This document shows, one piece after another, positions 37,333 to 58,771 of a DNA stretch of 64,000 nt. The notes under the pieces are model-generated. The model did no database searches and was not told the DNA's origin. It saw nothing but the letters and a program-made list of their open reading frames with translations. Source of the DNA: Sphingobacterium alkalisoli (GTDB lineage: Bacteria; Bacteroidota; Bacteroidia; Sphingobacteriales; Sphingobacteriaceae); NCBI RefSeq assembly GCF_005049105.1, contig NZ_SUKA01000001.1, forward strand, positions 124,001 through 188,000. The letters are read 5' to 3'. Each line of letters opens with the position of its first letter. Within the stretch, counting starts at the first letter, position 1. Both the position numbers and the translations under genes were made by a program.

Positions 37333-37802
37333 TGAATTAAAGTTTTTCTAATCTTTTATTTGAGTAAGGCGCAAGGAAATGTAGGTCTGATGTGCTTCCT
37401 TTATACGGATGTTAAAGAGATAAAATTACATAAGTTGTTTTCACTCACTTATATACCGCATTCGCTCGATGAAAGCCACACTCTGCTCATTAGCCTGATA
37501 TTTTCGGATTTTATGTGTTTGTTTTGATGTAACAAGCCCTATGAAAAGTAATGTAAATAGTGGCAATATACTATTTGTTATGAACACTAAAAGCCTGATT
37601 AAGATTGTCCCGATGGTTATACGCATTGGAAGCTATTCATTAAGTTGTACAAAAGGAGGTGTGGCAGTTCCCCGGGACGAACGAAGTGAGTGGGGAGATG
37701 GTGGATTTTCCGCTAATGCCATTGTTAATTGGCACGATTACAGGAGTGTAAAAGCGGCATTCCGTGTCGCCGACTAATTTAGTTTGAAAAAATCCCCTTG
37801 CC
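37333..37802. other. 470-bp gap between sigma pair and envelope cluster
   Basis: I see no convincing gene. A 61-codon leftward open stretch (37441-37626) with a hydrophobic N-terminus and a 78-codon rightward one (37541-37777) are both short and unlike known families. A weak hairpin (AAGGAA/TTCCTT, 37373-37401) may end the anti-sigma gene. The last 130 bp is more GC-rich and contains a CCCC...GGGG pairing near 37669-37696. The promoter of the cluster to the right must lie here. Confidence 0.5.
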
Positions 37803-39512
37803 ATGAAATTCTCCCTTTGGCTTTGTCTGTTGGTAGCGTTGATAGTTAAGACCTCGACTACACTTGCCCAAGACTTATCGAACCTTCAAGCCCAGAAGCC
37901 CATCGGGTTCAATGGCACTCTCGAACTTCGGGGTATCTATTACAATGCCAGCGGCATTGCCAATCGGCGTGATCCTTTTACCTATTTGCTGAGTGGAAGC
38001 CCTACGGTGAGTCTTTACGGATGGAGTGTGCCCTTCAGTTTTACACTGAGCAAAGATGACCGTGCGTTTAGGCAGCCTTTCAACCAATTTGGGATGAGCC
38101 CTACCTACAAATGGATCACCTTGCATGCCGGGTATAGAAATGTGACTTTCTCTCCCTTTACCTTGGCAGGCCATACGATGCTCGGTGGGGGATTCGAGAT
38201 CAACCCTGGCAAATTGCGGGTTGGATTCATGTACGGGCGACTCAATCGAGCTACTGTTGTAGACACAACTACGCAATCATTAGTGCCGTTTTCCTTTAGC
38301 CGTAAGGGAATGGCTGCCAAGCTGGGGTATGGAACCTCCACTAACCATTTTGACTTGAACTTCCTGCATGCCAAGGACGATAGTACTTCCCGGCCGGATG
38401 TCCGGTTACCCGACAGTTCGAATGTACTGGCCGCGGCCAATACGGTGTTGGGTTATAGCATGAAGTTTACGTTATTCAAGAAATTCTCTATAGAAAGCGA
38501 TGGTGCGGCAAGTATCTACACCCGCGACATAAATTCACCGATTACATTCGATTCCATAGCCGACCCCACGCTTCGGCGAATGAAAGGGCTCCTGGACATC
38601 AACGGTACAACGGAATGGTTTCTGGCATTTAATGCGGGCATCGGCTACCGGGAGAAAAACTACGGTATAAAGGTAAACTACAGGCGTATAGAGCCTGATT
38701 TTAAGACTATGGGTGCCTATTTTTTCGCCAATGATGTGGAAAATTTGACGATCAACCCCAATTTCTCCCTGCCTAATGGAAAGCTACGCGTAAATGCAAG
38801 CCTAGGCATACAACAGGATAACGTGAATTTACAAAAGCAAGCCACCAATAAGCGGATTATCGGTTCGGGTGTGATCGGTGCGGAAATTACCGATAAGCTG
38901 GGTGTAGATATCAACTATAGTAATTTCTCTAATAACCAGCGGCCGAATACGCTGCGGTTCGCCGATTCCTTGAAGATCGTGCAAACTACCCAGACACTGA
39001 ATATCATGCCACGATACACGATTATCGGGGAGCGAATGACCCATACGGTCATGCTCTCTGTAAACCTAAGCGGTATGAAAGATTACAATAGTTACTTTGA
39101 GCAGGAGGCCAACAACCGGGACATTAATACCAGCCAATACCTGCTGAACTATAGTGTGAGTTTCCCTTCCAAACTATTGAGCGTGTTCGCAAGTCTTAGC
39201 CACACCGCGATGGAAGGCGCAGGCACGGAAACGAGTTACAGCGGGGTGACCTTGGGGGGCAACTATAGTATGGCGAAGCAAAAGCTACAGACCGGCCTCA
39301 ATGGCAGCCTGATGCAAGGCAATACGTCGTCAGGCAAAAGTATGATTATCAATGGATCGATGAATCTTAACTATCGAGTCAATAATTGGCAATCTATACG
39401 TGCCTCGTTCTTTTTGACCAACAATAATCCAGGGAGTGTGATTACGGGAGTGAATCCTACATTTACCGAGACACGTGGTGAGTTGGCCTATCAAATCAAC
39501 TTCGGACTATGA
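37803..39512 (+). CDS. Barrel-like outer-membrane protein, first gene of envelope cluster
   Basis: 569 aa. Signal peptide to about 23 (T-L-A-Q). The rest consists of many amphipathic strands with aromatic ends (Y-K-W-I-T-L-H-A-G-Y-R-N-V, S-I-R-A-S-F-F-L-T) and a C-terminal Y-Q-I-N-F-G-L, as expected of an outer-membrane beta-barrel. I do not recognise the family. It overlaps the giant gene downstream by 4 bp (ATGA), so the two are translationally coupled; the barrel may be its export or anchoring partner. Confidence 0.75.
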   Translation: MKFSLWLCLLVALIVKTSTTLAQDLSNLQAQKPIGFNGTLELRGIYYNASGIANRRDPFTYLLSGSPTVSLYGWSVPFSFTLSKDDRAFRQPFNQFGMSPTYKWITLHAGYRNVTFSPFTLAGHTMLGGGFEINPGKLRVGFMYGRLNRATVVDTTTQSLVPFSFSRKGMAAKLGYGTSTNHFDLNFLHAKDDSTSRPDVRLPDSSNVLAAANTVLGYSMKFTLFKKFSIESDGAASIYTRDINSPITFDSIADPTLRRMKGLLDINGTTEWFLAFNAGIGYREKNYGIKVNYRRIEPDFKTMGAYFFANDVENLTINPNFSLPNGKLRVNASLGIQQDNVNLQKQATNKRIIGSGVIGAEITDKLGVDINYSNFSNNQRPNTLRFADSLKIVQTTQTLNIMPRYTIIGERMTHTVMLSVNLSGMKDYNSYFEQEANNRDINTSQYLLNYSVSFPSKLLSVFASLSHTAMEGAGTETSYSGVTLGGNYSMAKQKLQTGLNGSLMQGNTSSGKSMIINGSMNLNYRVNNWQSIRASFFLTNNNPGSVITGVNPTFTETRGELAYQINFGL

Positions 39513-42500
39513 AAAACTTACCATTGATATTTCGTCATATTAGTTTGATCCTGTTGTTTTTGACGGCGTATGACGTCGACGCGCAGGTCAATGTAAACAT
39601 CAGGGTGTTACCGCCTTACCAAAGCCGGATCACCGAGTATGCCTCCCGGCCAGATCTAATGCTGCTCACGCTCACCAATACATCCATCACGCCACGCCGT
39701 GTGCAACTATCTGCATCCATAAGTGGCGACAACGGAGTGGGAGCTTGGGTGAGGCCGGGGTATCGCAGCCCACAAGCTATCGAACTGGCTCCGGGACAAG
39801 TGCTTAACCTCAATGGGACGGACATTGCCTTTTTATTTGACCATAACCAGATCCAGTATACCGGCATCAGTCAAGCGGATTTCACAAGAGGTGTGGGGTT
39901 GTTGGAGGGAACTTATCAACTATGTGTGAAGGCGCTGGATTACGATACGCACAATCCACTGAGTCCAGAAGAGCCTATCGGCTGCACGCAGCTGGTAATC
40001 AGCAGTGTGGAACCACCTACGATCATTTCGCCTTTCAACGAGCAAGAATTGCGCGCTGATGGTCCGCAAGCGTTTCCCATCACATGGAGCACACCGCCGG
40101 GCGCATCGCCGATGACGCAATATAAAGTGAAGTTGGTGGAAATGATTGTGCCCAGGAACCCAAACGACGCCATTCAGTCATCTACTACACCGCCCTTTTT
40201 TGAGGAAACGGTCAACATGAACATGTTGTTGTATGGCCCGCAGTACCCACAATTAACTCCGGGAAGGCAGTACGCACTGATGGTGCAGGCCATAGACCCA
40301 TTTGGCACAATCAGCTTCCGCAACCAAGGGATGAGCGAGGTGGTGCTATTCACGTATGGTGCTACGCAGGCGGAGCCGGCGGGTCCCATCGTTGTCTATC
40401 AGGGAGACACCTTGCGTAAAGATACCACGCGTATCCGCGGGCGGCTCCGGTATCGCTTTGCGGGTGATGCCGAGGGGCGCACATTCCCCGTGGCCCACGA
40501 GCGGGTATACCTGAAAAAGGTGTTCGCTCGGCAGGAAATGGACGACGACGGTGTAGCGCGGTTTGTGCCGCTATCATCCCGTGAGTCTTTAGCCATCGAC
40601 GACCAATCGGCCATGCTCGACGGTGTGGCCGTGGAAACCGATGAAGATGGAAACTTTACACTGACCTGCCTGATGTCGGCATTGGATAGCGCGGGGGTCG
40701 TCCCTGACGGAAAGCGGGATTGGTTTACCGGCGGACAAGCAACGAAATCACGGGTTTCCGGATTCGGGAATTTCGGTCAGGTACCTGACAACCTGGTGCT
40801 GATGTATCAGTTGGTGACAACCAATCCGCATTATAAACCGTACGGAGAATACCTGGCCATCACCCCCGGCGGTACCCGTGATCTGGCGGACGTGGTGGTA
40901 GCTGCCAACAGCTATACGTTGAGCGTAAATGTGCAGGAGGTGTTCAACCAACTCCGTGGCGATTACGTAGCGGGGGCTAAAATCCGGATTTACCGGAATA
41001 TGGCCGACAAGAACGACAAGCGGCTCGGTATCCCGAAATACGAAGGCGACCTGTTGGACGATGGGCGATTGAATAACACGACGGCCGCTGATAAGGTGCT
41101 GATCGCTGAGCGTACTACGCCCAGCCCTTCAGGTTCGGCCGATCCGGAAACGTTCCGGGTCAATTTCGAACGGCTATTCAGGAACTTGGATGCCGAGCCG
41201 TACCGATACCGGGTCAGCCTCGAAAACGGCAACATGGTACTGATGGAAACTTCGCTCGACCAGCTGCAAATGGCGCTGGGTGTTTCGCCGTTGGGCGACC
41301 GCATCGCGAAGCAAGGAAAATCCGACGGAAAGGAAACGGCTAAGGCAATCGATACAAAAGGTCTCGTTGCACTTTTCGGAACTGGGGCGGCCAAACCGGC
41401 TCCTAGCAATCCCAAGGGCGAATCTCCTCAAGCGCAGACATCGGACGGCAAGGCAGAAGCCCGTGTTGCCAACGCAACACCCAAGCCCAGCACGAATAGG
41501 AGTGGCTGGCTGAGTTATCGGTATAACGACGAGCCGGATACGGCCCGGCTGACGCTCGATAAAAACCTGGTGACGCCGCCAAGGACCAAGCTGACCGGCA
41601 AATTGCAGTATGCCTATAAAACCGACCGCAGCATGCCCGCTACCCCATATGCGAATATGCCCGTTAAGTTGGTGGTCTTCTACCTGTTGGATGAGAACGG
41701 GTCGTCGACCCCTGATAAGAGGGGCCGTGAGGTGACCGGCAAGACATTAAAGGGAGTTACCGCTAAAGTGGGTGCCGTGACGTCAAGCTCGTTCTATTCA
41801 ACCGCCGCTATGCGGTATGCCAATCAAGATTTGGTAGGCCCACAGGCCAGCGCGTCGGGAAGCATAAGCGGCGCCAAACTGTTTGTCCCTGGAATCAGCG
41901 CGGAGGTGGGGGCTACAGCCATCGGTTCGAGTTCGGTTGTCCAAGGCGTGTTGAACGGCGAGCTTCAAGCAGGGAGTGAGGATGGGTACGAGCGGTTGGC
42001 CGGCAACAATATCGAGGTGGGCGGTAAAACCATCCAGGACAATATGCAGGTGCTACAGACGGTGTATACGGATGCAGAAGGGCGCTTCACCTTCGATTTT
42101 CCCAACGGCGAATTTACGGGGGCCGAGCTTGATGGGTCGGTGGCTACGCCTGTGCCGGACCAGACGGGCTTGCGGGCGTACGGAAAGGTAAAGCGGGTAT
42201 ACCGCGTCGTTCCCGACGTGCGGTACTATTGCGCGCCGGATGAGAACATCGTCGTACAGCCTTGGGAGGATGCCGACTGCGGTACCCTCACTTCATTCGT
42301 GCAAACGGTGAATATCGATGTGCATGTCGAAAAGATCGGCAGACTGGATAAACCGGATATCCTCGGTGGTTTTGCCAACGTGCCGGTAAACCTGTATAAG
42401 CCCGCCTATAGCTCCACCCGGAAATATTGGCCCGTGATGCAGGGTATCGACATCAACAGGGAAGTGAATCCGTTCAATAGTGGAGGGAACATGATGCTGG

Positions 42501-45500
42501 CCGGCACTGTAACGATGGCGACCGGTAGTATGGCCAATACGGGCAATTCAAATACGCTCAACAACGCGTTCCAAACCGCGCGGTTTACGCCCAACTACAA
42601 TGCAACTTACAGCGGAGCCAGCTTGGTCGCGTTTAGTGGCAGACAGACGGACGGTAAACCGGCCGCTGCAAATGTCCTGGCTATGCGGCCCCAATATGGC
42701 GTACTACAGTCTGCGGCGCCGTTGGTGTCCTCGCCCGTGGTGACGAATTTCCAAACCTATGTATTGTATCGGCAGGGGGCCAGTGACGAAAACGGGAATA
42801 TACGGTTTGAAAACGTGCCAAAGTCGCTGCCAATCACCCAAGACATGATTATGCTGGAAGCCGATGGCCGCGACCGGCTTACCGCGGCCGCTTTTGAGAC
42901 GGCCTACCTCGATTTCCCGGCCACGAAGAATATCCCTACGCGGCGGGAAGTGGAAAATCCCGGAATTGACATGGATAATAAAGGGATTATCCGAACGGAT
43001 GCATCTAGCTTCGTTTTCAATAGCGAGTTCGACCCGAGTGTTAATCAATCGGTTTACTTCCGCGTACTGGCCAAGCCCACCGAAGTTCGTGGACGGATTA
43101 CGGATGATTTTACGACGTTAGGCATCAAAGGCGTCAAGCTCCATGTGAGCATCAGCTTCGGCGTGAACAATAATGCATACTACCTCTCTGAATTTACGGA
43201 AACGAATGCTGATGGGTATTATGATTTCTCTTCGAAAATAAAGGATTTCCTGATCAACGCTGGCAACGATGGTGTGGAAAAAACCGGAGAGACAGGCTAC
43301 CTCTATGTGCGTTTAATTTCGGCACCGGGATATGAAGTGCCGGCCGAGCCCTACGGTGTGCAGATCGCTCCGGGAGTAACCGGAAAGCGCGAAGATTATA
43401 CCACCGCGCTGAAGCCGCTCGGGCGGAATGCCTTCGGCTACGTGGTGGACGCCGAGAACCCAGCCAAGGGCGTAACCGCTCGGGTGAAAATCAAAGACCG
43501 CGGGCGTTGGGTAGACACCTATGCCTACACCGGAAAAAAGGATGAGCCCGCAAAAGAAAAGAATTACATGGAGTACAATGGATACTACGCGAGTTCATTT
43601 GACGCTGTGGTGCAGTCGAATATCCAACTAGCCACCCAAAGTGGCACTCAGTCTGTATCGCGACCGTTGGGCAACGCCGGCATGTTGGTGACCACCTTGG
43701 TAAACAATAAACCTCAAACCACCTTCAAAGCCAGCTCCGCAGCCAGTGTTTCACCGATTGTTCAGGCAGCCATGGCCCGGTCGGAAGAATCGGGAAGCAA
43801 TATTCAGGTGATGGGGGCTATACGGGACATGCAGGTGGGCCCTTCAGTGGGCGTCACCGCACTCAACCGGGTGACCGACCTACAGCGGTTTGACATCGAC
43901 CTACCGGCAAGACCCGATTCGATCATGATCTTGCCCTATGATCCCGCCTACATCGGCGTAACCGTGGCAGTGAATCCGGACGGTCCGGACGCGTATCTCG
44001 GCGATTTCAAATTGCAGCGGAGGGAGCACCGCGTTGAGATCCTGGTGAAAACAACAACCGGGGGAGTGGTGACCAATGCGAACGTAGAAATAGAAGGTGC
44101 GGGCGACGATAATTTCCGGAAAACGAACAGCATGGGGTTGGCATCGTTTACGTATGTAAATAACTCCATCGACAACTTTACCGTGCGGGTTAGCAACGGC
44201 GCGCAACCCCGTTCGCAGACAGGTAAAGCACGGGAAACGGCCCCTGATACGGCCCCAGCGAAAGGTGCACAGCCGCAGCAAACCGGTGGATTGCGTCTGC
44301 CGGACGGAAATGTGGGCAACGCTAACGGAACAGGGAACGGGCAACTCAACATCGTCAGCCCCACGCGGCAAAACGTACTTTTCGTTCCCCGCACGCAAAA
44401 TTTTGTGAGCAACGATGACAATGTGGTGCACCGGGTTACGGTCGTTGTCCAACCCGCCACCGTGATGACGGGCCGTGTGGTCTTCGCCGCGGATAGCTCA
44501 CCGGTAAGGGGTGCCGTGGTCTACATAGACCAAGGGCGGGGCAGCGAGTCAGACATGCGGGCGGAAACCCGTTCGGATGGTACCTACGAACTAATTGTCC
44601 CGGCACCTGCCGCCAGTGGATTATTCCCGAGTGGCAATAGCCAGCTCCCACAGGCGATTACCGCCACCTATTCGGCGCCGGGCCGCACCTATATCGGCCA
44701 AACCGTATCGTTGGCCAAGCGGGGCAAGGTGCCTCAATCTGCGCCTACTTCCGTCGATTTCGCGATACGCGAAGCGGGCGACATCGATGTCAGCAAGCTG
44801 TACGGATTCCCCGCGCGGTTGAACGATTTACGTCCGACAAGCGGCGGATACCTTGTCAGCGGTGAATTGTACGACCTGGAAGACAACCCGAATTTTGCGC
44901 TCCGGTCGGCATCGGGACCGAAAGTGCTGGCGTTTGAAAACCTCAAGGTCGGCGCTTCCACCATCACAAATGATGACGGAGTTCCGTTGGCTGTACCCAC
45001 GGAAGACCACATCCAGTTTGAACAGAAACAGCTGCGGATCCGTGTGTTTAACGTATTCAACGGACAGCTGGCTGAACAGGGCAACGGTAAGTTGAAGATG
45101 ACCAAGGGGCAGACAGATACCACGGGCGTACTCAATGGACAAGTACGTATTGTTGACAATTCGTTTAATTTCCCGACGAGTTACATGACCATCAGTAATT
45201 CGGATTTTTACGTCGGGAATTATGGGAATGCCAACACGGCCCAGAAGTTGACCATTCCGGTCTTCCGCACAGGTGAACCTTATCCGCTGACGAAATTTTC
45301 GATTACCGCGGGCAATGGCAGCCCAATCCGATTCAAATACCTCGGCTTCGACGGACTCACGGAGACCGCCGGCGAGCGGGAGTCTTTTGTGATGGGCGAT
45401 AGCGTGAACCTGTTCATGAACCTAACCGCGCGCATACAGGGTGGGATAACCCTAGACCTCAAGGCGGGCAAGGCCGTAATCAGGCATGACCGCATGGATC

Positions 45501-47563
45501 CGGTGGTGACAGACAATGAGGTGCGCTTTAAGCTGGAGGAGTGGGAGGTGCACAGTACGTCATGGACGCTGTCTAATACATCGGGCGGTATCGTGCTGAA
45601 TAACAATACACTGTATACCGGGAAAGCCGATATCAAATTGAGCAAGATCTCAATCATCCCCGGCGAGCTTATTTTCCACAACGCTACCGGATCGGAGGCC
45701 GCAAATCTCCGCAAAAACCTCACGGTGGGGGGCAAAGCGAACATCAAGCTGCATGTCAATCCCCGGGCAGACATTGCTTTTGTCTACGATCCGGATGTAG
45801 GCCGTATACCCGGACAGGGGCATTTCAAGTTTACGCTGCGGAGCGATGACGGAAAGGCGGCGCACCTGAAAGGACTTCCTGGGATGACGAATCCGAATGA
45901 CCGGTTGGAGATCCAATATATGTCGCTGTTGAGCAACAACGAAGAAGTGTTCGGCTTCAGCACGGATGCGGAGGGTATCACGTTCCAAAATCAACTGTCG
46001 TTCAAACCACAAAGCATATACAGCGCGTTCGACCGGCTGGTCATTTCCGGAGCTGCTAGTCTACATATTCCCAATGTGCCAGACAACCTGTCGGCCACCA
46101 TTTCCTACTATCCGGAAGGCAACGGCACCAACCGCTTGGTGGTAAGTCCGCTAGAATTTTCCTTTACGGGCAGCGGTGGCACCACGTTCACCACCCTGAA
46201 GCAGGAAAACGCACAACTGTTTCATGAAAAGGGCATCGGGATTGCCGGCACGATAAAGCTGCCTGGACAGTCCACGACGCTGAAGGCAAACCTGGTGAGC
46301 ATGGTCACCGGTGGCCTCAATGGGGCTGCCGACGAAGCGCGGCGGCAAACGGAGATCGTATTGGGAGCCTATCAAGAAGAAGCAGGCCGGATGGCCGCGA
46401 ATTTGGTGGATGAGGTGGCCAATGATCCCGCGCTGGCCGAAGCGCGCCGGACACTCGAAGAAGCCATGGGTGGCGCAAACGACACTTACAACCAGTTGCT
46501 CCAGATGGGGGGAACCGCCGAACAGGCGATGCAGGAGCTTGCCGGCAAATGGCGGCTGATCGGTGAGGGGATGGATATCGTCAACAACGGTATCGACAAT
46601 AACCCCATCGGGGCCGCGATGCAGATAAACGGCATCATCAAGGGCTTCTCGGGTATCGATATTGCCGACAAGGCAAAGCAAACGGCCAAGATGGTGGCCA
46701 TGGAGGCGCTAAAAGGGATTCAGGATGAAATCCCGGTACAGAAAATCGCCGACGGGGCAGCGGGAGGCAATGGTGGCTTCTCAGACATGAAGTTTGATTT
46801 TGACTTCGCTAATGGCCGCGTGTTCGGGTCGCTCAGCATGCCCAAGCTGGAGGCAGGTGCCGTGACGCTGACCAAGCTGGGCATAGAAATGTTGTTTGAC
46901 CCCAAAGGCTGGTATTTTTACACTGGCGCCAATATCAACGTACGGGGCGTGCCGCTGATTTTCCCACTGGGCGTAGGCATGTGCGTGGGTTCCTATCCCG
47001 AGATTTCACCGGCACTGGAAGCGCGGATCACCGAAGTATCGTACGTGAAGCGCCTGCCGAATACGTATAAGGCCAACGGCATACAGGGCTTCTTCCTGAC
47101 CGGGCGAAAAGACATCATCGAGGAAGTGAAATTCGAGGTGCCGGGGATCGGGATCGAAGTTGGTGCCATGGCGGGCTTGGATGCCCGTATCTATGCCAAT
47201 TTCGGCGGAGCCTCGCAAGAATTGGGTATCGGGGCGATGGCATTCGGGCGCGCTTACGCCCGCATGTCGCCGGTTTCGCAACTACTCATGGGATGCGGCA
47301 TTTCCGGCGAGGTCAAAGCGGAGTTGGGTGTGAAGACCACCTTTACCAACAGCCCGGCCGGTGTCACGTTCAACGCCCGGGCGTGTGGCTCGCTTAACAT
47401 GAAGGCCGAGGTTACCTGTTTGCTGGTGGCAAAGAAATCGTTTGACATCGGATTCCTGGCATTGCTTGATCTTTGCGTCGGTGCGGATTGCACAAAGACC
47501 GTGAACTTCAATGCCCGCCTCTCCGATGAAAGCTGCAGTGAAAGCAATGATTTTGATTATTAA
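39509..47563 (+). CDS. Giant secreted multidomain protein (2684 aa), TANFOR-type N-terminus
   Basis: Signal peptide to about 26 (D-V-D-A-Q). Residues 27-290 form an N-terminal beta module (V-N-I-R-V-L-P-P-Y, F-T-R-G-V-G-L-L-E-G-T-Y, then an Fn3-like P-I-T-W-S-T-P-P-G) that I know from Bacteroidota proteins labelled TANFOR domain. Then come regulatory-like beta domains near 311, 490, 689, 1191, 1305, 1507 and 1650, each with a T-D-x-D-G-x-F/Y type turn; a repetitive beta region near 1780-2260; a helical, possibly coiled-coil stretch near 2264-2411 (E-A-R-R-T-L-E-E-A-M); and a 250-residue end domain with seven cysteines. No known enzyme motif or T9SS sorting signal is evident. Function unknown; adhesin or surface-fibre roles are guesses. 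Confidence 0.85.
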   Translation: MKNLPLIFRHISLILLFLTAYDVDAQVNVNIRVLPPYQSRITEYASRPDLMLLTLTNTSITPRRVQLSASISGDNGVGAWVRPGYRSPQAIELAPGQVLNLNGTDIAFLFDHNQIQYTGISQADFTRGVGLLEGTYQLCVKALDYDTHNPLSPEEPIGCTQLVISSVEPPTIISPFNEQELRADGPQAFPITWSTPPGASPMTQYKVKLVEMIVPRNPNDAIQSSTTPPFFEETVNMNMLLYGPQYPQLTPGRQYALMVQAIDPFGTISFRNQGMSEVVLFTYGATQAEPAGPIVVYQGDTLRKDTTRIRGRLRYRFAGDAEGRTFPVAHERVYLKKVFARQEMDDDGVARFVPLSSRESLAIDDQSAMLDGVAVETDEDGNFTLTCLMSALDSAGVVPDGKRDWFTGGQATKSRVSGFGNFGQVPDNLVLMYQLVTTNPHYKPYGEYLAITPGGTRDLADVVVAANSYTLSVNVQEVFNQLRGDYVAGAKIRIYRNMADKNDKRLGIPKYEGDLLDDGRLNNTTAADKVLIAERTTPSPSGSADPETFRVNFERLFRNLDAEPYRYRVSLENGNMVLMETSLDQLQMALGVSPLGDRIAKQGKSDGKETAKAIDTKGLVALFGTGAAKPAPSNPKGESPQAQTSDGKAEARVANATPKPSTNRSGWLSYRYNDEPDTARLTLDKNLVTPPRTKLTGKLQYAYKTDRSMPATPYANMPVKLVVFYLLDENGSSTPDKRGREVTGKTLKGVTAKVGAVTSSSFYSTAAMRYANQDLVGPQASASGSISGAKLFVPGISAEVGATAIGSSSVVQGVLNGELQAGSEDGYERLAGNNIEVGGKTIQDNMQVLQTVYTDAEGRFTFDFPNGEFTGAELDGSVATPVPDQTGLRAYGKVKRVYRVVPDVRYYCAPDENIVVQPWEDADCGTLTSFVQTVNIDVHVEKIGRLDKPDILGGFANVPVNLYKPAYSSTRKYWPVMQGIDINREVNPFNSGGNMMLAGTVTMATGSMANTGNSNTLNNAFQTARFTPNYNATYSGASLVAFSGRQTDGKPAAANVLAMRPQYGVLQSAAPLVSSPVVTNFQTYVLYRQGASDENGNIRFENVPKSLPITQDMIMLEADGRDRLTAAAFETAYLDFPATKNIPTRREVENPGIDMDNKGIIRTDASSFVFNSEFDPSVNQSVYFRVLAKPTEVRGRITDDFTTLGIKGVKLHVSISFGVNNNAYYLSEFTETNADGYYDFSSKIKDFLINAGNDGVEKTGETGYLYVRLISAPGYEVPAEPYGVQIAPGVTGKREDYTTALKPLGRNAFGYVVDAENPAKGVTARVKIKDRGRWVDTYAYTGKKDEPAKEKNYMEYNGYYASSFDAVVQSNIQLATQSGTQSVSRPLGNAGMLVTTLVNNKPQTTFKASSAASVSPIVQAAMARSEESGSNIQVMGAIRDMQVGPSVGVTALNRVTDLQRFDIDLPARPDSIMILPYDPAYIGVTVAVNPDGPDAYLGDFKLQRREHRVEILVKTTTGGVVTNANVEIEGAGDDNFRKTNSMGLASFTYVNNSIDNFTVRVSNGAQPRSQTGKARETAPDTAPAKGAQPQQTGGLRLPDGNVGNANGTGNGQLNIVSPTRQNVLFVPRTQNFVSNDDNVVHRVTVVVQPATVMTGRVVFAADSSPVRGAVVYIDQGRGSESDMRAETRSDGTYELIVPAPAASGLFPSGNSQLPQAITATYSAPGRTYIGQTVSLAKRGKVPQSAPTSVDFAIREAGDIDVSKLYGFPARLNDLRPTSGGYLVSGELYDLEDNPNFALRSASGPKVLAFENLKVGASTITNDDGVPLAVPTEDHIQFEQKQLRIRVFNVFNGQLAEQGNGKLKMTKGQTDTTGVLNGQVRIVDNSFNFPTSYMTISNSDFYVGNYGNANTAQKLTIPVFRTGEPYPLTKFSITAGNGSPIRFKYLGFDGLTETAGERESFVMGDSVNLFMNLTARIQGGITLDLKAGKAVIRHDRMDPVVTDNEVRFKLEEWEVHSTSWTLSNTSGGIVLNNNTLYTGKADIKLSKISIIPGELIFHNATGSEAANLRKNLTVGGKANIKLHVNPRADIAFVYDPDVGRIPGQGHFKFTLRSDDGKAAHLKGLPGMTNPNDRLEIQYMSLLSNNEEVFGFSTDAEGITFQNQLSFKPQSIYSAFDRLVISGAASLHIPNVPDNLSATISYYPEGNGTNRLVVSPLEFSFTGSGGTTFTTLKQENAQLFHEKGIGIAGTIKLPGQSTTLKANLVSMVTGGLNGAADEARRQTEIVLGAYQEEAGRMAANLVDEVANDPALAEARRTLEEAMGGANDTYNQLLQMGGTAEQAMQELAGKWRLIGEGMDIVNNGIDNNPIGAAMQINGIIKGFSGIDIADKAKQTAKMVAMEALKGIQDEIPVQKIADGAAGGNGGFSDMKFDFDFANGRVFGSLSMPKLEAGAVTLTKLGIEMLFDPKGWYFYTGANINVRGVPLIFPLGVGMCVGSYPEISPALEARITEVSYVKRLPNTYKANGIQGFFLTGRKDIIEEVKFEVPGIGIEVGAMAGLDARIYANFGGASQELGIGAMAFGRAYARMSPVSQLLMGCGISGEVKAELGVKTTFTNSPAGVTFNARACGSLNMKAEVTCLLVAKKSFDIGFLALLDLCVGADCTKTVNFNARLSDESCSESNDFDY

Positions 47564-47575
47564 TACGATAAAGCA

Positions 47576-49588
47576 ATGAAATCTGCGAGTATAAAAAGTG
47601 TGTTGATGTTAGTGGTGGCCGGCTTTGCCGGTATCACGGTCGGTTTGGCGCAGCAGCGTAAGACGGGCGAAAAGGCCTACTTCACCGGTACGGTGCAAGG
47701 GCTCTACGTGGAGTTCAATGACGTGGCGGTGGCGCGGATGGGGCTGACCGTTATGCGGAAAAGCAAGGCGGACGCCGATTATGTGCCTGTCGGAAGGACT
47801 GCCCGGCCGACCAGCGGTGCTGATTTTTACCGACGGATGAGCGATGTGGTCGATTTGTTTCCGGGATACAGCCTACCCGCTACGGAGCTGGCGGATTCGC
47901 TGTGGCAGGTATGGAGTGGTCAGGACGCGGCCTCGTTATTGGGTGTGCGTAGTCCGATCATCCATTTGGCGCTGGGCCTGAGCTTTTTGGATACCGGCGC
48001 TGTAAGCGGCGAAACCTATGCCTATCAATTCACAGGCAAGGCCGATGGATCCCGTTTTGGATCAGAGTGGGTGGACTATGAACGGACATCGCCGGCATTT
48101 TCCCCGATGAGGAGCACCATTGTTGACCCCGGAGAAAGCCGGCCATACCTGGAATGGCAATCCGCGCAAGCGAACGGGGCCATGCAATTTGACATATGGC
48201 GAAGGGTAAGCGGCACGGCTACCGATTTCGAAAAATTATTCACGCCGTCTGGCGTAGTCGTGAATGCCAAGGGCGATTCGCTTACCTACTTGGTCACCGA
48301 TACCACGGCGCTATCGGGTGTGCGGTACGATTACTACATTGCCAGCAGGGATATCTTTGGCAACCCCGGCAATCCCTCGGATACCGTTACCTTGCAGGTA
48401 GGCGGGCGTCGGAATATCGAAACGGCGTTCAATGTGCAGACCCAGGCGGTAGACAACGGCATACGGCTGTATTGGGAGCCGTTGGAGCAGCGCTATAGCC
48501 TGCAGAACATCGTCATCCTGCGAAGCGCTGTGTACGACGGGGGGTACGAAACCATTGCTACTGTGCCCGTAACGGATACCGCCTACGTAGACCTCGACGT
48601 GCGCGGGGGAAAGAGCTATTACTACCAGTTGTTGATACAGGGCGAGGCCAATTTTTCCCTAGCGTCGCCGCGCGTTTCTGGCATCTATCAGGGCGTCGTG
48701 AAGCTATTGCCGCCCCAGAACCTCGAAGGCAAAGATACGCCCGAAGGCTGCCGTTTATCGTGGTACTATGCTGATACGGTCAATCTGCGCGGTTTTTACG
48801 TGTATCGCACCACGTCCCCCACATCGCCCTTGGAGCAGGTAAGCGGACTGCTACCCCCCACGGCGGGCCTCAATACTTATGTAGACACTGCACAACGGGC
48901 AGCGGGTGGCCATGCGTACTACATGGTTGCTGCCGTATCTACCACCCAATCGTTGAGTCCACCTTCCGCCGTCATCGAAGTACTGCGGTCTGGTACGAAC
49001 GAAACCGTGCGGTTAACCGCACCCAGCCAGCTGAGGCCGCTTTGGCTCACCGATACAACGGTTTCGCTCACCTGGTTGGATTTGCACCGCATTTCTGAGC
49101 ACGTGGCTGTTTACCGGGTGTACCGCAAGGACACCGATGATGGAGCATTCGGGGAAAAAGCATGGCTGGAAACCGATATGAACGAATTTGTCGACACACT
49201 GACCCACGGGCAGCAATATTGGTACGCCATCCGATCCGTTGATGCCAGTGGTACGCTGAGCGCGCTGAGCCCGGTAGTGGTCGTAGCCTCCCAATATCAG
49301 AAACCCCTGCCGCCAGGGAGTGTGCGATTGATGGCGGGCGACGGCGGCGTGGTAGTTAACTGGGACACCGATGGCGCATCGGGCAACATTCATTCGTATC
49401 GCATTTACCGGGCGCTGGCCGCAGGTGGTACGGAAATGATTGCCGACGTTGAATCCGTGGGAGAACAGCAAAGCTATTTAGACAAAACGGCAAAAGCGGG
49501 CAATCGCTATTATTATTATGTCTCGAGTGTCGATAAACGCGGAATTGAAAGTGAAGTAAGCGAGGAGGTTTCGATTACGATGCCTTAA
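47576..49588 (+). CDS. Fibronectin type III-like repeat protein
   Basis: 670 aa. Signal peptide about 1-25 (G-L-A-Q-Q). Residues about 25-190 are a distinct beta domain; from about 190 to the end there are five Fn3-like repeats of about 90 residues, with strands like Y-D-Y-Y-I-A-S, Y-Y-Y-Q-L-L-I, Y-Y-M-V-A-A-V, Y-W-Y-A-I-R-S-V and Y-Y-Y-Y-V-S-S-V. Ends S-I-T-M-P without an evident sorting domain. It is 12 bp after the giant gene and probably forms a partner or complex with it. Confidence 0.82.
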   Translation: MKSASIKSVLMLVVAGFAGITVGLAQQRKTGEKAYFTGTVQGLYVEFNDVAVARMGLTVMRKSKADADYVPVGRTARPTSGADFYRRMSDVVDLFPGYSLPATELADSLWQVWSGQDAASLLGVRSPIIHLALGLSFLDTGAVSGETYAYQFTGKADGSRFGSEWVDYERTSPAFSPMRSTIVDPGESRPYLEWQSAQANGAMQFDIWRRVSGTATDFEKLFTPSGVVVNAKGDSLTYLVTDTTALSGVRYDYYIASRDIFGNPGNPSDTVTLQVGGRRNIETAFNVQTQAVDNGIRLYWEPLEQRYSLQNIVILRSAVYDGGYETIATVPVTDTAYVDLDVRGGKSYYYQLLIQGEANFSLASPRVSGIYQGVVKLLPPQNLEGKDTPEGCRLSWYYADTVNLRGFYVYRTTSPTSPLEQVSGLLPPTAGLNTYVDTAQRAAGGHAYYMVAAVSTTQSLSPPSAVIEVLRSGTNETVRLTAPSQLRPLWLTDTTVSLTWLDLHRISEHVAVYRVYRKDTDDGAFGEKAWLETDMNEFVDTLTHGQQYWYAIRSVDASGTLSALSPVVVVASQYQKPLPPGSVRLMAGDGGVVVNWDTDGASGNIHSYRIYRALAAGGTEMIADVESVGEQQSYLDKTAKAGNRYYYYVSSVDKRGIESEVSEEVSITMP

Positions 49589-49762
49589 CGGCGCCTAACC
49601 CTACCGGCCTCCTTGCTTGGCGGCGGGTATTGGCACGGATGTGAACAGCTCCCTCAATCAAACGGCTCACTCGCTCATTGATACGCTATACCGGCGCATT
49701 GTTGGAAATAAAATCTGAGGCATGACTTAGGTTTGTGTAGTCATTCGTTAAATATAGATGTT

Positions 49763-50215
49763 ATGAACAGACTTTCACTATGCATCGCAGTTGTCCTATT
49801 GACCATGGCTTGCGGCAAAAAAGACAACCCTCAACCCGAAAATGAGTTGACTTACAACGGGCAAGCCATCACGTTAGCCAGTGCCAGCTATATCATCGCC
49901 AATGACTACGAGTCGCTGGAGGTATACAGCGAAGACCAGCAATGCATGATCAACATCCTTTTGAGTAAGCTTGGCAACGAGGTGGCACAGGGCACATACA
50001 CCTATGCCAATCAGAATAATAATCCAAACTACAATCCTTCGGAAAACTTTTGGTATGGACACATCTTGGTGGCAGATGAACCGGTGGATGAAGTGGTTTC
50101 CGGTTCGGTCAGTATCCGCAAAACAGGAAGTAATTACCAAATAACATTCGATTTGGTTGCCGAAAAGAGCACGATCAAAGGAAGGTATGCAGGGCCGGTG
50201 AACATTAGCCCATAA
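49763..50215 (+). CDS. Small lipoprotein
   Basis: About 150 aa from the ATG at 49763 (M-N-R-L-S-L-C-I-A); an upstream TTG start would put ten residues before the signal. Lipobox T-M-A-C near 16, then G-K-K-D-N-P-Q-P. Beta-rich mature part with Y-N-G-Q-A-I-T-L and S-G-S-V-S-I-R-K-T-G-S-N-Y-Q-I-T-F, as in small Bacteroidota beta-sandwich lipoproteins. Its 174-bp leader and the stop-rich segment 49589-49762 hold nothing else I can name. Confidence 0.75.
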   Translation: MNRLSLCIAVVLLTMACGKKDNPQPENELTYNGQAITLASASYIIANDYESLEVYSEDQQCMINILLSKLGNEVAQGTYTYANQNNNPNYNPSENFWYGHILVADEPVDEVVSGSVSIRKTGSNYQITFDLVAEKSTIKGRYAGPVNISP

Positions 50216-50340
50216 AATGAGAGCACGATTAAGACGATTTGTAAGATAAGGTGCTGTTTTGCGATCAGGGCGGCTGGAAAAATATTATACAAGTGATAAT
50301 GAGCACGATACGGTTCATTGACTCTAAAAAACTAAGCGAA

Positions 50341-51309
50341 ATGAAATTCAGTTTAACATGGGTATGGATAGTGGCATTGGGAATTGCGTTGGGATGCAAA
50401 AAGGAAGGTAATGGCCCACATGTGGCGCAATGTGCGCTGCCAGATTATAAGGCGGTTTCGCAAGGCGATTTCGGCCGGCCATGCGGTATAGCGGTTTCCA
50501 AAAGCGGAATGGTCGCAGTGAATGCATATAACGGATTTGGCGAATATGGTGGAGCATATGGTATCCTTGGAAAAACCAGGGTTTGGCGCAATTACAGTGA
50601 CTTTCTGACTAAGGCCGCTCCTGTGGCTGAATGGGACAACCGAGGGGCTGAGGCGTTGGCTTTTGACAGCGATGATAACCTATATGTGGCCGAAACCGAG
50701 CAGGTTGCAGGCATTGCCGTTTATCGTAAACAGGTGTTTACGATTTCTGGGCGACCAGACGTTGTCACTTACCACTATGTCAAAACTATACAAGGCGGAT
50801 TTGTGAACCCGCGAGGTCTGGCTTTCGACAGCCAGGACAGGCTCTACATCGCAAATGATGGCGTGGGAAACATCATCCGGATGAATAGTCCGCTTACCTC
50901 GGATGTGAAGCAACCCATCGCCTCAGGTTTTGGCAATGTCAAAGGGTTGGCCATCTATCAGGATACGCTGTACACCACAACGTTTGGTGAAGACGTCGTG
51001 ATGAAGCATACTTTAAATGGGGATGGGTCGTACGGTACAATTTTGGGCATTGCGAGGGGTATCGCCAACCCGGTCGATATAGCTGTAACGGATGGGGTGT
51101 TGGTGATCAGTTCGCCGGTATCTGGCATAGTTACCCTTCTTAACCCACAGGGGTTCAACGGTCCATCCGTGAGTTACAATGATTGTGTTAAGGAAATAGC
51201 TGTAGGTCGCAATTTGTTCGGATTGGCATTTGTGCCCACGCCAAGCAATGGTGTGGGCTTATTGGCCGCCCATCTCGATCAGAATAAAGTGATTTTTTAC
51301 CAACCATAA
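50341..51309 (+). CDS. Beta-propeller (NHL/SMP-30-like) lipoprotein
   Basis: About 322 aa from the ATG at 50341 (M-K-F-S-L-T-W-V); a start 90 bp earlier lacks a signal. Lipobox A-L-G-C near 20, then K-K-E-G. The mature part repeats propeller-blade elements: E-A-L-A-F-D-S-D-D-N-L-Y-V-A, N-P-R-G-L-A-F-D-S-Q-D-R-L-Y-I-A-N, G-L-A-I-Y-Q-D-T-L-Y, N-P-V-D-I-A-V-T-D-G-V-L-V. At least five blades. Likely a periplasmic or surface binding protein, or lactonase-like; catalytic residues cannot be assigned. Confidence 0.8.
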   Translation: MKFSLTWVWIVALGIALGCKKEGNGPHVAQCALPDYKAVSQGDFGRPCGIAVSKSGMVAVNAYNGFGEYGGAYGILGKTRVWRNYSDFLTKAAPVAEWDNRGAEALAFDSDDNLYVAETEQVAGIAVYRKQVFTISGRPDVVTYHYVKTIQGGFVNPRGLAFDSQDRLYIANDGVGNIIRMNSPLTSDVKQPIASGFGNVKGLAIYQDTLYTTTFGEDVVMKHTLNGDGSYGTILGIARGIANPVDIAVTDGVLVISSPVSGIVTLLNPQGFNGPSVSYNDCVKEIAVGRNLFGLAFVPTPSNGVGLLAAHLDQNKVIFYQP

Positions 51310-51333
51310 TGATTGAGATTAAATTATTACACC

Positions 51334-52074
51334 ATGAAAGCACTTCAAAAATTAATATTTTCTGCCATGTTGATCTGCCTGATGTCGGCATGTAAAAAAG
51401 ATAACAACCGTCCAGACGAACAGTCAGGAGATGTGACCATCCGTGTCGAAACGGCCAGCGGAATCACCTATAAGGTGTATGTCAATGAAAACCTGGGTAG
51501 CTACAAAGGCATCCTGGTGATGGGTAGCGGCAATGACCCTGGAAATCCTAGTCCCGGCAGCTTGGACGGGGGGCTTGAAAATAACACCTGCAAGAAAGCA
51601 GCAGAAAACGGTTACGTGGCTGCCGTGGTGCAATACCGCGCTACACCGGGGAATGCCGATTGGAATGGCAGCGCCACCATGGTAGGACAGGATTACGCCA
51701 CGTGCATCAATGCTTTGTCGGCAAAATATGGAGTGGACAAGTCCAAGTCCGTGGTGGGTGGTGTATCGTATTCTTCGGCCATGCTGCTTACCAATATCGT
51801 CCTTTCGGAAGCCCTCAAACACACCAAAGGACTGCTCGCTTCCTGCTGGACGGCTGATGCATGGAGAGCACAAAACTTCAAAATTCCCGTATTCAACATC
51901 GTATGCAACTGCAACTGCGATGGCGGCGGGCTCACTGGAGCGGCGCTTATGGCGCAAATTAACCCGGCAGTAAAAGCGCAAAGTGAAGCCGTGGTAGACA
52001 ATAGTTGCAATACACATTGCGGCGGCAATTGGGTGGATCCGCTCTATACGAAAATGACAGCTTGGTTAAATTAA
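51334..52074 (+). CDS. Alpha/beta-hydrolase-like lipoprotein
   Basis: About 246 aa from the ATG at 51334. Lipobox L-M-S-A-C near 19. The fold is seen in V-N-E-N-L-G-S-Y-K-G-I-L-V-M-G-S-G, V-A-A-V-V-Q-Y, the nucleophile elbow G-G-V-S-Y-S-S-A-M (G-x-S-x-S instead of the usual G-x-S-x-G), and a C-terminal C-N-T-H-C-G giving a possible catalytic histidine flanked by cysteines. Close relatives are serine esterases or cutinase/chlorophyllase-like. Substrate unknown; 24 bp after the propeller gene. Confidence 0.78.
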   Translation: MKALQKLIFSAMLICLMSACKKDNNRPDEQSGDVTIRVETASGITYKVYVNENLGSYKGILVMGSGNDPGNPSPGSLDGGLENNTCKKAAENGYVAAVVQYRATPGNADWNGSATMVGQDYATCINALSAKYGVDKSKSVVGGVSYSSAMLLTNIVLSEALKHTKGLLASCWTADAWRAQNFKIPVFNIVCNCNCDGGGLTGAALMAQINPAVKAQSEAVVDNSCNTHCGGNWVDPLYTKMTAWLN

Positions 52075-52095
52075 TTCACATAACATTCAAATTCC

Positions 52096-52635
52096 ATGAA
52101 CACAAAACAATTTTCCCTCGTACTGACCATGTGCATGATGTTACTTGGCGGGGTACAACATGCAAAAGCACAATTCCCCGTGAAATTCGGCATTGGATTG
52201 GAAGTCGGTCTTCCGCTTACAGAAGGCTTGGCGGAACACATGCTGGGTATCGGTGCCACGTTCAATGCCAGCTATGCTATGCCATTCCACGAGCCCTTGG
52301 ACGTGATTGCCTCGGTGGGATACCACCGGTTTGTGTATTATGAAAGACTCGAAGGCGTAAATAATCCGCAGTATGTGCCCATAAAGCTGGGAGCGCGATA
52401 CAATTTCAATACGGCTTTTCCCGTGTTTGCCAAATTGGAATTTGGTCCGATGATTTCCCTCCAGGATGCTGAAGTGGGAGAAGGCACGAGCTTCCTAGTT
52501 TCACCGGGTGTTGGTACCCTATTTGGTCCCGTCCGTGCCGAGCTGAAATATGAGGAATGGATGAATTCAGGAATTGCGGACTTTGGGCTACTCTCCCAAT
52601 CCTTTTTGGGACTCAAATTCACCTATGAATTCTAA
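52096..52635 (+). CDS. Small outer-membrane beta-barrel protein
   Basis: 179 aa. Signal peptide about 1-26 (H-A-K-A-Q). Eight or so short amphipathic strands (G-I-G-L-E-V-G-L-P-L, I-A-S-V-G-Y-H-R-F-V-Y-Y, K-L-G-A-R-Y-N-F) ending G-L-K-F-T-Y-E-F, a terminal aromatic residue as in barrels inserted by BAM. 21 bp after the hydrolase gene. Probably a structural part of the cluster, or a minor porin. Confidence 0.82.
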   Translation: MNTKQFSLVLTMCMMLLGGVQHAKAQFPVKFGIGLEVGLPLTEGLAEHMLGIGATFNASYAMPFHEPLDVIASVGYHRFVYYERLEGVNNPQYVPIKLGARYNFNTAFPVFAKLEFGPMISLQDAEVGEGTSFLVSPGVGTLFGPVRAELKYEEWMNSGIADFGLLSQSFLGLKFTYEF

Positions 52636-52673
52636 TATGCACCGCACACACCGTGTGATTAATTATTCGAAAT

Positions 52674-53363
52674 ATGAAACATCTTATTACCTATATCTTT
52701 CCATGGTTGGTCGGGCTGCTGGCGGTGGTAAGCTGCAAAAAGGATGGTACATCATCCGACCAACAGGATAACCTGGCCAACACCCTTTTATACGGTCATT
52801 TTACCGACGATGCCCTGTCAGACGATAATAGGCTTTTTGCTATTAGATTGCATGAAGGGGGTAAATTCACCTGGTACGATGCTGTCAATACCTTTTCTGG
52901 CGAATGGTCGCAGGAAGGGAATAAGGTTGATTTTAGGTTTACCGAAGGCGCATTCAACCGCTGGAGTGCGACCAGAAATCGGGATGAGCTGGTGGATATC
53001 ATCGGCCCAACTCCTGCAAATTATTTTCACTTGGTCAATATCCGTATAGCCGGTGCCAGTGGCCCTAACTCATTGAAGGGAACTGAATGGCGGGAAATCA
53101 ACGAAAATAGCCAGCTAACTATTTTTCCCGGCCAGCCGGAAGGCTTGATGCAAGTTGTCGGGGTAAGACTGCGAAGCTTGGGTAGCGATGGCTTGATTTT
53201 TAAGCAAGTGGATAGACAGGTCTTGTTGCCAAATGACAGCTATGCTGGACAATATCTCACCATGCTCATTACGCATGGGAATTTCTTGGTCATGTATTGT
53301 TATGAGCCCACCCCTTATTCAGGGATGAAGAAGTTCACAACTTATACTTACCTATTGAAGTAA
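52674..53363 (+). CDS. Hypothetical lipoprotein A of envelope cluster
   Basis: 229 aa. Signal ends V-V-S-C near 22, then K-K-D-G-T. Beta-rich mature part (H-E-G-G-K-F-T-W-Y-D, F-S-G-E-W-S-Q-E-G-N-K-V-D-F) resembling lipocalin-like lipoproteins. No recognised function. It precedes a similar-sized lipoprotein gene by 42 bp; the two share layout and perhaps descent, but sequence similarity is too low for me to say. Confidence 0.72.
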   Translation: MKHLITYIFPWLVGLLAVVSCKKDGTSSDQQDNLANTLLYGHFTDDALSDDNRLFAIRLHEGGKFTWYDAVNTFSGEWSQEGNKVDFRFTEGAFNRWSATRNRDELVDIIGPTPANYFHLVNIRIAGASGPNSLKGTEWREINENSQLTIFPGQPEGLMQVVGVRLRSLGSDGLIFKQVDRQVLLPNDSYAGQYLTMLITHGNFLVMYCYEPTPYSGMKKFTTYTYLLK

Positions 53364-53405
53364 TAGAAAAGCAAAATGAAACAAGAGGAAATAAAAAATT
53401 AATAC

Positions 53406-54119
53406 ATGAAAACATTAGCAAGAATATTATTCGTCGTCTTATTGCTGGGAGGGGCGTCTGCCTGCAAAAAGGACAATGTCAATGCGGGCTTTGATCTTAA
53501 TGAAGATATAGGCGGATACGTAGTCATTGGCAAAATAACGCCTGTAGAAAATATCCAATCCACGTTTATGATCACATTCGACCCATTGGTCAAACGCGCA
53601 ACATTCTATGATGGCTCCTCGTATATTTATTCGCACCGTTTTACGGTGAGCGGGAATGAAGTGCACATCGATATGGATAATCAGTATTTGAAAATCAGTA
53701 TCAGGGAGGGAGCGATCGCTTCTTGGGATGCTGGCGATTCGGAGTTTGCAGCCAATATTGTGGACAACTCACTTTCCCTACACAAGATACCGGATAGCAA
53801 TGTACTACCTGGCCAATACGAACGTACCCAATGGGCAACTAATATTCCAGCGTATTTCATTCCATATTTCAGGACCCATCTGGCGGTATCCACAGACAGT
53901 TTTGTGTTTGGTGTAGACGAGGACACTGAGCCGACAACAGCATATGAATTGATCAATAACATGGCAGCAGATCACCTCACGTCGGTAATGTCCAACGATG
54001 TCCGAATACGAACCCTGATGATCAGGATAGGTAATCACATGGAGGTGGTGCGTGTGCGGTCGTTTTTTAGCAACGGGGCCATACAAGGTTTTGAAAGCAC
54101 GCAATATGCACGCAAGTAA
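53406..54119 (+). CDS. Hypothetical lipoprotein B of envelope cluster
   Basis: 237 aa. Signal ends A-S-A-C near 20, then K-K-D-N-V-N-A. Mature part opens N-E-D-I-G-G-Y-V-V-I-G and continues as beta strands (H-R-F-T-V-S-G-N-E-V-H-I-D-M, similar to the pattern in the neighbour). Last gene of the nine-gene rightward run; 140 bp separate its end from the convergent LacI gene, and I see no clear terminator there. Confidence 0.72.
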   Translation: MKTLARILFVVLLLGGASACKKDNVNAGFDLNEDIGGYVVIGKITPVENIQSTFMITFDPLVKRATFYDGSSYIYSHRFTVSGNEVHIDMDNQYLKISIREGAIASWDAGDSEFAANIVDNSLSLHKIPDSNVLPGQYERTQWATNIPAYFIPYFRTHLAVSTDSFVFGVDEDTEPTTAYELINNMAADHLTSVMSNDVRIRTLMIRIGNHMEVVRVRSFFSNGAIQGFESTQYARK

Positions 54120-54259: not shown

Positions 54260-55300
54260 TTAGGCTTTCCGTGTCGAAGACTCGCGCACAATCAATTCTG
54301 TTTTTAAGGTAATCACCTGATGGTCGATAATGTCAAAGTCTTGATCCTGAATATGTTGAATAAGCATTTTGGCGGCCGCTTCTCCCATTTGTACCGCTCG
54401 GTCGTTAATAGTGGTTAGGCTGGGTTCGATAATCTGCGCAATAGGATAATCACTAAAACCGACTATTGCGACTTGTTCTGGTACGTTTATTTTTCGTTTA
54501 TTAAGAACTTTTACCACACTGGCAGCCGTGTAGTCGTTAGCACAAAAGACACCATCAGGCAGCGGATTTAATTCCAATATTTTTTCAGCACATGTTAGCC
54601 CTTCTTGATAACTTAAGCTATGGGTCACAAAAATATGGTCATCCCTAAGAGGCAGATGGTATGATTTAAGCGCTGCTTTATACCCCTCTAGCCGAGCCCT
54701 GAAAATTCCGGTCGATTGATTACCAGCTATATGCACGATGTTCTTGCAGCCGATCTTTATCAAATGTTCCGTTGCATTGAAAGCCGATTCAAAGTCATTA
54801 ATCGTAATTTTGTTGGTGTCGAAAGTTTCTGGTGTTCGATCGTAGAAAACGACAGGAAGTTTAGTTTTAATGAGTTTTTTGAGATGATCAAAGTTTTTGG
54901 TTTCCATTGCCAAACAGATAATCATACCTTCTACCATCATGTTTTGTAGATTCTGAAGGATCTCTTTTTCCATTTTGTAGGAATCTTTGGACTGAAAGAT
55001 AATAACATGATAGCCACTCTTATATGCATAATCTTCAATACCGCTAATCACACGGGAATGGAAATCAATATCTATCCGTGGAGCGATAATCCCTATAGAC
55101 TTTGTTTTTTTGCTTCTAAAGCTTGAAGCGATAGCGTTAAGACGAAAACCCGACTGTTCAGCTTTATCAGAAACCAATTTTTTAGTTGCTTGACTTATTT
55201 TAGGGTGATCAGAAAGAGCTCTCGATATGGTTGAAGGCGAAAGATTAAGTTCTTTGGCCAGATCTTTTATTGTTATAGGTGTTGTTTTTTTTTCTTTCAT
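54260..55300 (-). CDS. LacI-family transcriptional regulator
   Basis: 346 aa DNA-binding repressor. N-terminal helix-turn-helix and hinge: T-I-K-D-L-A-K-E-L-N-L-S-P-S-T-I-S-R-A-L at about 7-26, then the periplasmic-binding-like sugar domain (V-V-F-Y-D-R-T near 134; G-V-F-C-A-N-D-Y-T-A near 233; I-I-E-P-S-L-T-T-I near 290). Divergent from the SusC gene and adjacent to two operator-like palindromes; it probably represses the amino-sugar PUL until the inducing sugar binds. Confidence 0.94.
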   Translation of the reverse strand: MKEKKTTPITIKDLAKELNLSPSTISRALSDHPKISQATKKLVSDKAEQSGFRLNAIASSFRSKKTKSIGIIAPRIDIDFHSRVISGIEDYAYKSGYHVIIFQSKDSYKMEKEILQNLQNMMVEGMIICLAMETKNFDHLKKLIKTKLPVVFYDRTPETFDTNKITINDFESAFNATEHLIKIGCKNIVHIAGNQSTGIFRARLEGYKAALKSYHLPLRDDHIFVTHSLSYQEGLTCAEKILELNPLPDGVFCANDYTAASVVKVLNKRKINVPEQVAIVGFSDYPIAQIIEPSLTTINDRAVQMGEAAAKMLIQHIQDQDFDIIDHQVITLKTELIVRESSTRKA

Positions 55301-55428
55301 CTCGATATCAAACTATTTTCCGCTCGTTAGACTTACCGTACTACGCGAGGCGAAATAACATTAAATTAGTATAGCAAATAAAGATAAGCAAAATTTCCAC
55401 GCAATGCTGTCTTTGTTCAATTTAGTGA

Positions 55429-55440
55429 CAAACGTTTGCA
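55429..55440. promoter_or_regulatory. LacI-type operator 1
   Basis: Palindromic core CAAACGTTTG (55430-55439), followed by CATTAATT. It shares TTTGCATTAATT with operator 2, 142 bp away. Confidence 0.65.
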
Positions 55441-58760: not shown

Positions 58761-58771
58761 TAGAATATATT

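Follow-up and report, generated by a model that had tools for sequence, protein, structure and literature searches.

In two-partner secretion (FhaC/TpsA), the gene for an outer-membrane barrel stands beside the gene for a giant exported protein whose N-terminal module is conserved. Two other described groups come close to the locus reported here, a barrel gene, a giant gene and a fibronectin type III (Fn3) gene in a 64,000-nucleotide stretch of the Sphingobacterium alkalisoli genome (contig NZ_SUKA01000001.1, positions 124,001 to 188,000; hereafter the window). PorP/SprF carriers bind, export and anchor type B cargo of the type IX secretion system (T9SS; PMC12618676, PMC9143113, PMC12635249), and the known carriers are 14-stranded FadL-family barrels that bind C-terminal signals (PMC9143113). 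For the TANFOR proteins of Bacteroidetes, a role as polymorphic toxins has been proposed (PMC7073777); Fn3 and T9SS-substrate genes are enriched near their loci, and their export is left as a hypothesis.

The trio lies on the + strand, as do all window features given below, with the barrel gene at 37803..39512 (569 residues), the giant gene at 39509..47563 (2684 residues; type I signal peptide by eye) and the Fn3 gene at 47576..49588 (670 residues; PF00041, 25.1 bits against a cut-off of 25). The barrel and giant genes overlap by 4 bases, and 12 bases separate the giant and Fn3 genes. We compared 79 named loci, obtained with the barrel family as query from the best 80 of 359 relatives. The gene after the barrel carries the N-terminal module of the giant (N-module) in 77 of these 79, and an Fn3 protein was recognised no more than three genes after the giant in 63, using the window Fn3 sequence as query. 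Six of the 14 loci that have the N-module gene and no recognised Fn3 protein end at contig ends; the other eight have a gene of 696–753 amino acids at or near the Fn3 place that the window Fn3 sequence does not recognise. Among 20 further loci, chosen by hand for their barrel scores in the phylum list, 16 have the N-module in the same stretch as the barrel, including L193, where the barrel is at a contig end and was missed by the gene finder.

The initial annotation had proposed a nine-gene cluster in which every product carries an export signal. Nine same-strand open reading frames (ORFs) are indeed present (569, 2684, 670, 160, 352, 253, 179, 229 and 237 amino acids, in order), and signals were seen by eye, no predictor being run, on all nine: four type I signals ending in AQ and five lipoprotein signals, the latter count taking downstream starts for the ORFs at 49763, 50341 and 51334. 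As a unit, however, the cluster is smaller. The order barrel–giant–Fn3, searched across Bacteroidota, is conserved, which passes the refuting test set by the initial annotation, whereas for the last six genes the Sphingobacterium olei copy gave the only matches among the loci compared (most named loci have little sequence beyond the Fn3 gene; eleven same-genus stretches, L111–L121, do extend past it). The sigma-70-like gene and its 400-amino-acid partner upstream were likewise matched only in S. olei among these loci. Since next-gene synteny recurs for the trio, and the downstream six and the upstream pair find matches in S. olei alone among the loci compared, we take barrel, giant and Fn3 protein as the conserved unit and reject a nine-gene one. 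A fourth conserved gene was also considered and rejected; genes between giant and Fn3 are few (nine cases) and lineage-specific.

The giant is 82–83% identical over its full length in Parapedobacter pyrenivorans and another relative, and no Pfam family matches it over its cut-off. Residues 25–144 match TIGR02542 (TANFOR) with 22.9 bits when the 1–300 piece is searched and 17.1 bits for the whole protein, values that do not reach the curated cut-off of 67 bits. Across the family, the model is matched at E ≤ 1 by 52 of 54 aligned N-termini (best 1e-46), and a six-frame search of 395 phylum genomes returned none with a match over the cut-off. Judged by these matches, the giant N-terminus (residues 1–285, 39509..40363; TANFOR-like plus Ig/Fn3-like) is a divergent TANFOR module. 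The statements that no known system fits the set and that it is a candidate undescribed system are thus partly wrong, the giant belonging to a described family (PMC7073777). Neither the partner barrel nor the two-module inheritance set out below was found described in the literature searched.

The two parts of the giant follow different neighbours. Across 65 loci, pairwise similarity of the N-module correlates with that of the barrel (r 0.86, bootstrap 0.79–0.92) and that of the remaining giant body with that of the Fn3 protein (r 0.95, 0.92–0.97), while N-module and body correlate with each other at r 0.40 (0.28–0.53), though they form one polypeptide. A first correlation used the 73 of 87 loci that had all parts; the 65 are these minus two misassigned or truncated rows and six near-duplicates, with the window represented by S. 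olei. When the giant is divided into 30-residue windows (S. olei numbering; the S. olei giant is six residues longer than that of the window at some point before residue 1515), it tracks the barrel at 31–270 (r 0.65–0.79) and the Fn3 protein from 301 on (r 0.51–0.71), with the change-over within residues 271–300. In swapped pairs, similarity drops sharply past residue ~285; the exchangeable body of the window giant is 286–2684 (40364..47560). The trees disagree in the same way: the Fn3 tree rejects the clade of window, S. olei and three Parapedobacter that is found in the barrel tree (p 8e-53, approximately unbiased test; p-AU) and rejects the pairing of the two copies from bacterium A37T11 (p-AU 6e-6). 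We conclude from these sequence comparisons that the giant is a chimera, its N-terminal ~285 residues inherited with the barrel and the rest with the Fn3 protein.

One pair of genomes appears to preserve such an exchange at the DNA level. P. pyrenivorans and P. defluvii have common upstream flanks and 82.5% DNA identity over most of the barrel and on to giant codon ~283, past which there is no alignment; read from the alignment, this is a cassette replacement in place. Similar swapped pairs are L006/L007 (one genome), L030/L032 and L022/L040. Bacterium A37T11 (L006, L007) has two trios whose barrels are similar in sequence and whose bodies and Fn3 proteins differ, so that nature offers a pair on which carrier specificity could be tested. 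The bodies fall into types, that of the window being type I. Type II (L020 and its relatives) is remotely homologous to type I (hhalign probability 99.6%), which corrected an earlier view that all body types are unrelated. Types III and IV score 12.8% and 12.3% against type I, too low for a reliable link, and are locally related to each other (91%). The window body contains a carboxypeptidase-regulatory/transthyretin-like domain (residues 1653–1698, 44465..44602) and, near its end, long antiparallel strands (2421–2674, 46769..47530) that are barrel-like in the model at low confidence. An LptD-like reading of the C-terminal half (Foldseek E 1.6e-7) was treated as meaningless, with TM-scores of 0.07–0.09.

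The barrel is predicted from its structure model to be an MtrB-like outer-membrane beta-barrel with ~26 strands. The model has 25 strands of at least 7 residues, the first at residue 34, immediately behind the signal region. No NCBIfam family matches the window barrel at E 0.1, and there is no PorP/SprF family among 25 Pfam families listed for 75 barrel members (27 matched in all). Relatives are sometimes named DUF5723 protein, and no mention of DUF5723 was found in the literature searched. The barrel occurs in 87 of the 395 phylum genomes, the N-module in 94 and both in 79 (Fisher p 1e-57, not corrected for relatedness); all 13 genomes matching TIGR02542 at E ≤ 1e-3, none of them over the cut-off, have the barrel. 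It is also present at loci resembling the published toxin loci (L160, as a short match, and L177). Furthermore, the two are sometimes a single protein. ORFs of 863–1016 amino acids with the N-module followed by the barrel are present in six of ten stretches fetched on a hint from the phylum N-module search (L197, L198, L199, L201, L202 and L204); the other four showed no fusion. The next gene after the fusion encodes an Fn3-family or another N-module protein in five of the six. Separately, the barrel genes of L158, L176, L177 and L181 (815–818 amino acids) have ~250 extra residues after the barrel domain.

As the N-module co-varies with the barrel and the body with the Fn3 protein, the barrel is likely a dedicated carrier for exchangeable giants. 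A cargo with its own neighbouring barrel and a matched module is also the PorP/SprF pattern, and for this reason we read the trio as a TANFOR-specific carrier. In our judgement the barrel is probably a dedicated outer-membrane carrier that would bind the N-module and hold the exchangeable body and the Fn3 protein on the surface. Sec export would lead to the periplasm, and SprA, the type IX translocon, would be the probable route across the outer membrane. The barrel would capture the N-module, in or on itself, by analogy with the capture of C-terminal signals by PorP/SprF, and the giant body and the Fn3 protein would be exposed at the surface. The body would be the cargo, its end in one relative (L160) being a predicted nuclease toxin domain.

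SprA_N was found in all 87 barrel genomes, compared to 303 of 395 overall, and in the window's own genome (G000; E 1.5e-155). This co-occurrence fits a T9SS dependence of the trio. In L177, the gene directly upstream of a barrel and N-module giant encodes an SprB-repeat protein with a T9SS C-terminal sorting signal. Both observations argue against a scheme in which the barrel itself is the export channel, a T9SS-independent conduit for one cargo, like an usher or a two-partner transporter, through which the giant is threaded and which the N-module keeps plugged. There is also nothing POTRA-like before the barrel, whose model strands start at residue 34, and we consider this scheme unlikely.

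Several observations count against the carrier. The SprA co-occurrence is confounded by descent, and neither the giant nor the Fn3 protein has a TIGR04183, TIGR04131 or PF18962 match at E 0.1. In two of the 79 named loci (L072, L077) and four of the 20 further loci (L185, L191, L192, L196), the stretch read contains no N-module. At the genome level, eight barrel genomes have no N-module hit, their barrel hits all being weak (E 1e-7 to 4e-4), and 15 genomes have the N-module and no barrel hit, although a barrel was present in the stretches read from two of these (G223, G439). The genes for barrel and N-module are several kb apart or on different contigs in some genomes. Finally, PorP/SprF proteins bind C-terminal signals and have 14 strands, whereas the window barrel has a predicted ~26 and the co-varying part of the cargo is N-terminal. 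Because the barrel is about twice as large and the module N-terminal, the analogy with PorP/SprF is one of role only.

A broader version would make the barrel the missing outer-membrane component of TANFOR proteins generally, with the N-module docking in a wide MtrB-like barrel and body-plus-Fn3 cassettes, antibacterial toxins included, recombining behind it. We put this forward as a tentative possibility that we would sooner doubt than adopt. If true, it would define a new secretion or anchoring class in which an N-terminal module, instead of a C-terminal signal, docks.

The trio could also be an antibacterial polymorphic-toxin system whose giant kills neighbours by an unrecognised toxin domain. 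This would agree with the toxin role proposed for TANFOR proteins (PMC7073777) and with L160, where a TANFOR-module protein has a colicin/pyocin DNase domain at its end (E 3.9e-41) and is followed by a short barrel match. The window giant, on the other hand, has no known toxin domain in Pfam or NCBIfam at E 0.1. Its last 284 residues are the most conserved of four segments compared with P. pyrenivorans (94% identity, against 77% for residues 331–1500), the opposite of a variable toxin tip, and this conserved C-terminus argues against such a tip in the window giant. No conserved small gene was seen to follow; the gene directly downstream is that of the Fn3 protein, and the small lipoprotein gene at 49763–50215 is not conserved. 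A toxin system is a rather improbable account of this trio; judged from its sequence, the window giant is more likely a surface protein with a structural, binding or membrane-inserting role than a variable-tip toxin.

The genes outside the conserved unit bear on a different alternative, nutrient capture. Here the barrel would serve as a porin or transporter of large size, and a polymer would be bound at the cell surface by the giant, Fn3 protein and lipoproteins in a SusCD-like manner. The six are a lipoprotein (49763..50215), an NHL-propeller lipoprotein (50341..51309; PF01436, 27.3 bits), an alpha/beta-hydrolase-like lipoprotein (51334..52074; weak PF20434, E 0.047), a small OMP_b-brl-like barrel (52096..52635; PF13505, E 1.8e-4, below cut-off) and two further lipoproteins (52674..53363 and 53406..54119), and the S. 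olei copy in which they are matched is L110. The NHL gene is present in two of seven genomes searched and absent from three Parapedobacter genomes. Mature starts of the five lipoproteins read C(G)KK(D/E), which we take to resemble surface-lipoprotein signals. Directly downstream, at 54260–60145, are a SusC/SusD-like pair and a LacI-like regulator, named by eye. This pair and regulator, the lipoproteins and propeller adjoining the trio in the window genome, and the transthyretin-like domain of the giant, as in the SusC N-terminal extension, would suit nutrient capture. Conversely, S. olei alone gave matches to the lipoproteins, only six of the rows compared contain relatives of the SusC-like gene (the window and two S. 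olei stretches make up three of the six), and the TANFOR locus with a toxin domain also carries a barrel match. The window barrel matches no TonB-dependent receptor family in Pfam or NCBIfam, and that identity was set aside. We regard nutrient capture as very improbable.

Related genes forming one BLAST cluster of five follow the Fn3 gene in L030, L032, L033, L034 and L046. By eye, most encode lipoproteins, and the tail of the L046 product is NHL-repeat-like, recalling the window NHL lipoprotein; surface propellers may be recurrent companions of the trio. Response-regulator-like genes (by eye; one BLAST cluster) follow the trio in L012, L022 and L026. Directly 5' of the window barrel, at 35543–37332, are the sigma-70-like gene (by eye) and the gene for the 400-amino-acid protein, in which a single membrane segment is seen by eye and which also contains an OMP_b-brl_2-like stretch.

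Acquisition of the cluster had been suggested by the initial annotation from the high G+C content of the giant gene relative to the LacI gene and the upstream region. The contrast is real: 1-kb windows give 0.52–0.58 at 40001–47000, 0.40–0.41 at 36001–38000 and 0.36–0.41 at the LacI gene. The giant exceeds its flanks by 0.11 in the window, compared to a mean of 0.025 (standard deviation 0.030) over 95 rows, 13 of which are second copies of loci already counted. The window giant (0.55) equals the Parapedobacter giants (0.53–0.54). For G+C at third codon positions, body minus barrel-plus-N-module gives +0.081 for the window, and 76 rows average −0.024 (standard deviation 0.036). A composition break exactly at the junction is only roughly supported, the best single break falling at giant codon 189, not 285. 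In the barrel tree, the window sits apart from most other Sphingobacterium and beside Parapedobacter: a group of window, S. olei and three Parapedobacter has 99% support (SH-like approximate likelihood ratio test; SH-aLRT), and a single Sphingobacterium clade is rejected (p-AU 1.6e-4; the constrained set included the misplaced row L019 and one Sphingobacteriaceae row). Moreover, the barrel is carried by only 14 of approximately 72 same-genus genomes. The barrel tree supports acquisition, and the high G+C content fits a Parapedobacter-like source.

New here are the co-occurrence of barrel and N-module, the chimeric giant with its cassette swaps and the module–barrel fusions. In the modular swap, a surface system keeps its docking part and replaces about two thousand cargo residues along with their helper. 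A partner barrel with no Pfam family of its own would be missed by domain-based neighbourhood analysis. The export route of TANFOR proteins was left as a hypothesis in 2020 (PMC7073777), and a conserved partner barrel makes the question testable by one gene deletion.

Compared to two-partner secretion, the window barrel gene likewise adjoins the gene of a giant exported-type protein with a conserved N-terminal module, but the barrel model has no strand or domain ahead of it that could be POTRA, and the giant has no TPS domain match in Pfam or NCBIfam. MtrB of the MtrCAB complex (PDB 6r2q) resembles the window barrel in the large barrel fold of the model, yet no MtrB chain is among the PDB sequence profile matches at E ≤ 10. 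An electron conduit was rejected, the barrel, giant and Fn3 protein having no CxxCH haem motif. With the TANFOR toxins (PMC7073777), the trio shares a TANFOR-like N-terminal module on a large protein with a Sec-type signal and a nearby Fn3 gene, and the relative L177 adds a nearby gene for an SprB-repeat protein with a T9SS signal. The main text of that paper contains neither "barrel" nor "porin", and the window giant differs in that no toxin domain was found, the C-terminus is a conserved part, and exchange takes in the entire body past residue ~285. With PorP/SprF, the trio has in common a cargo gene beside its own outer-membrane barrel gene and a cargo-specific pairing of the two, as described in PMC12618676 and PMC9143113.
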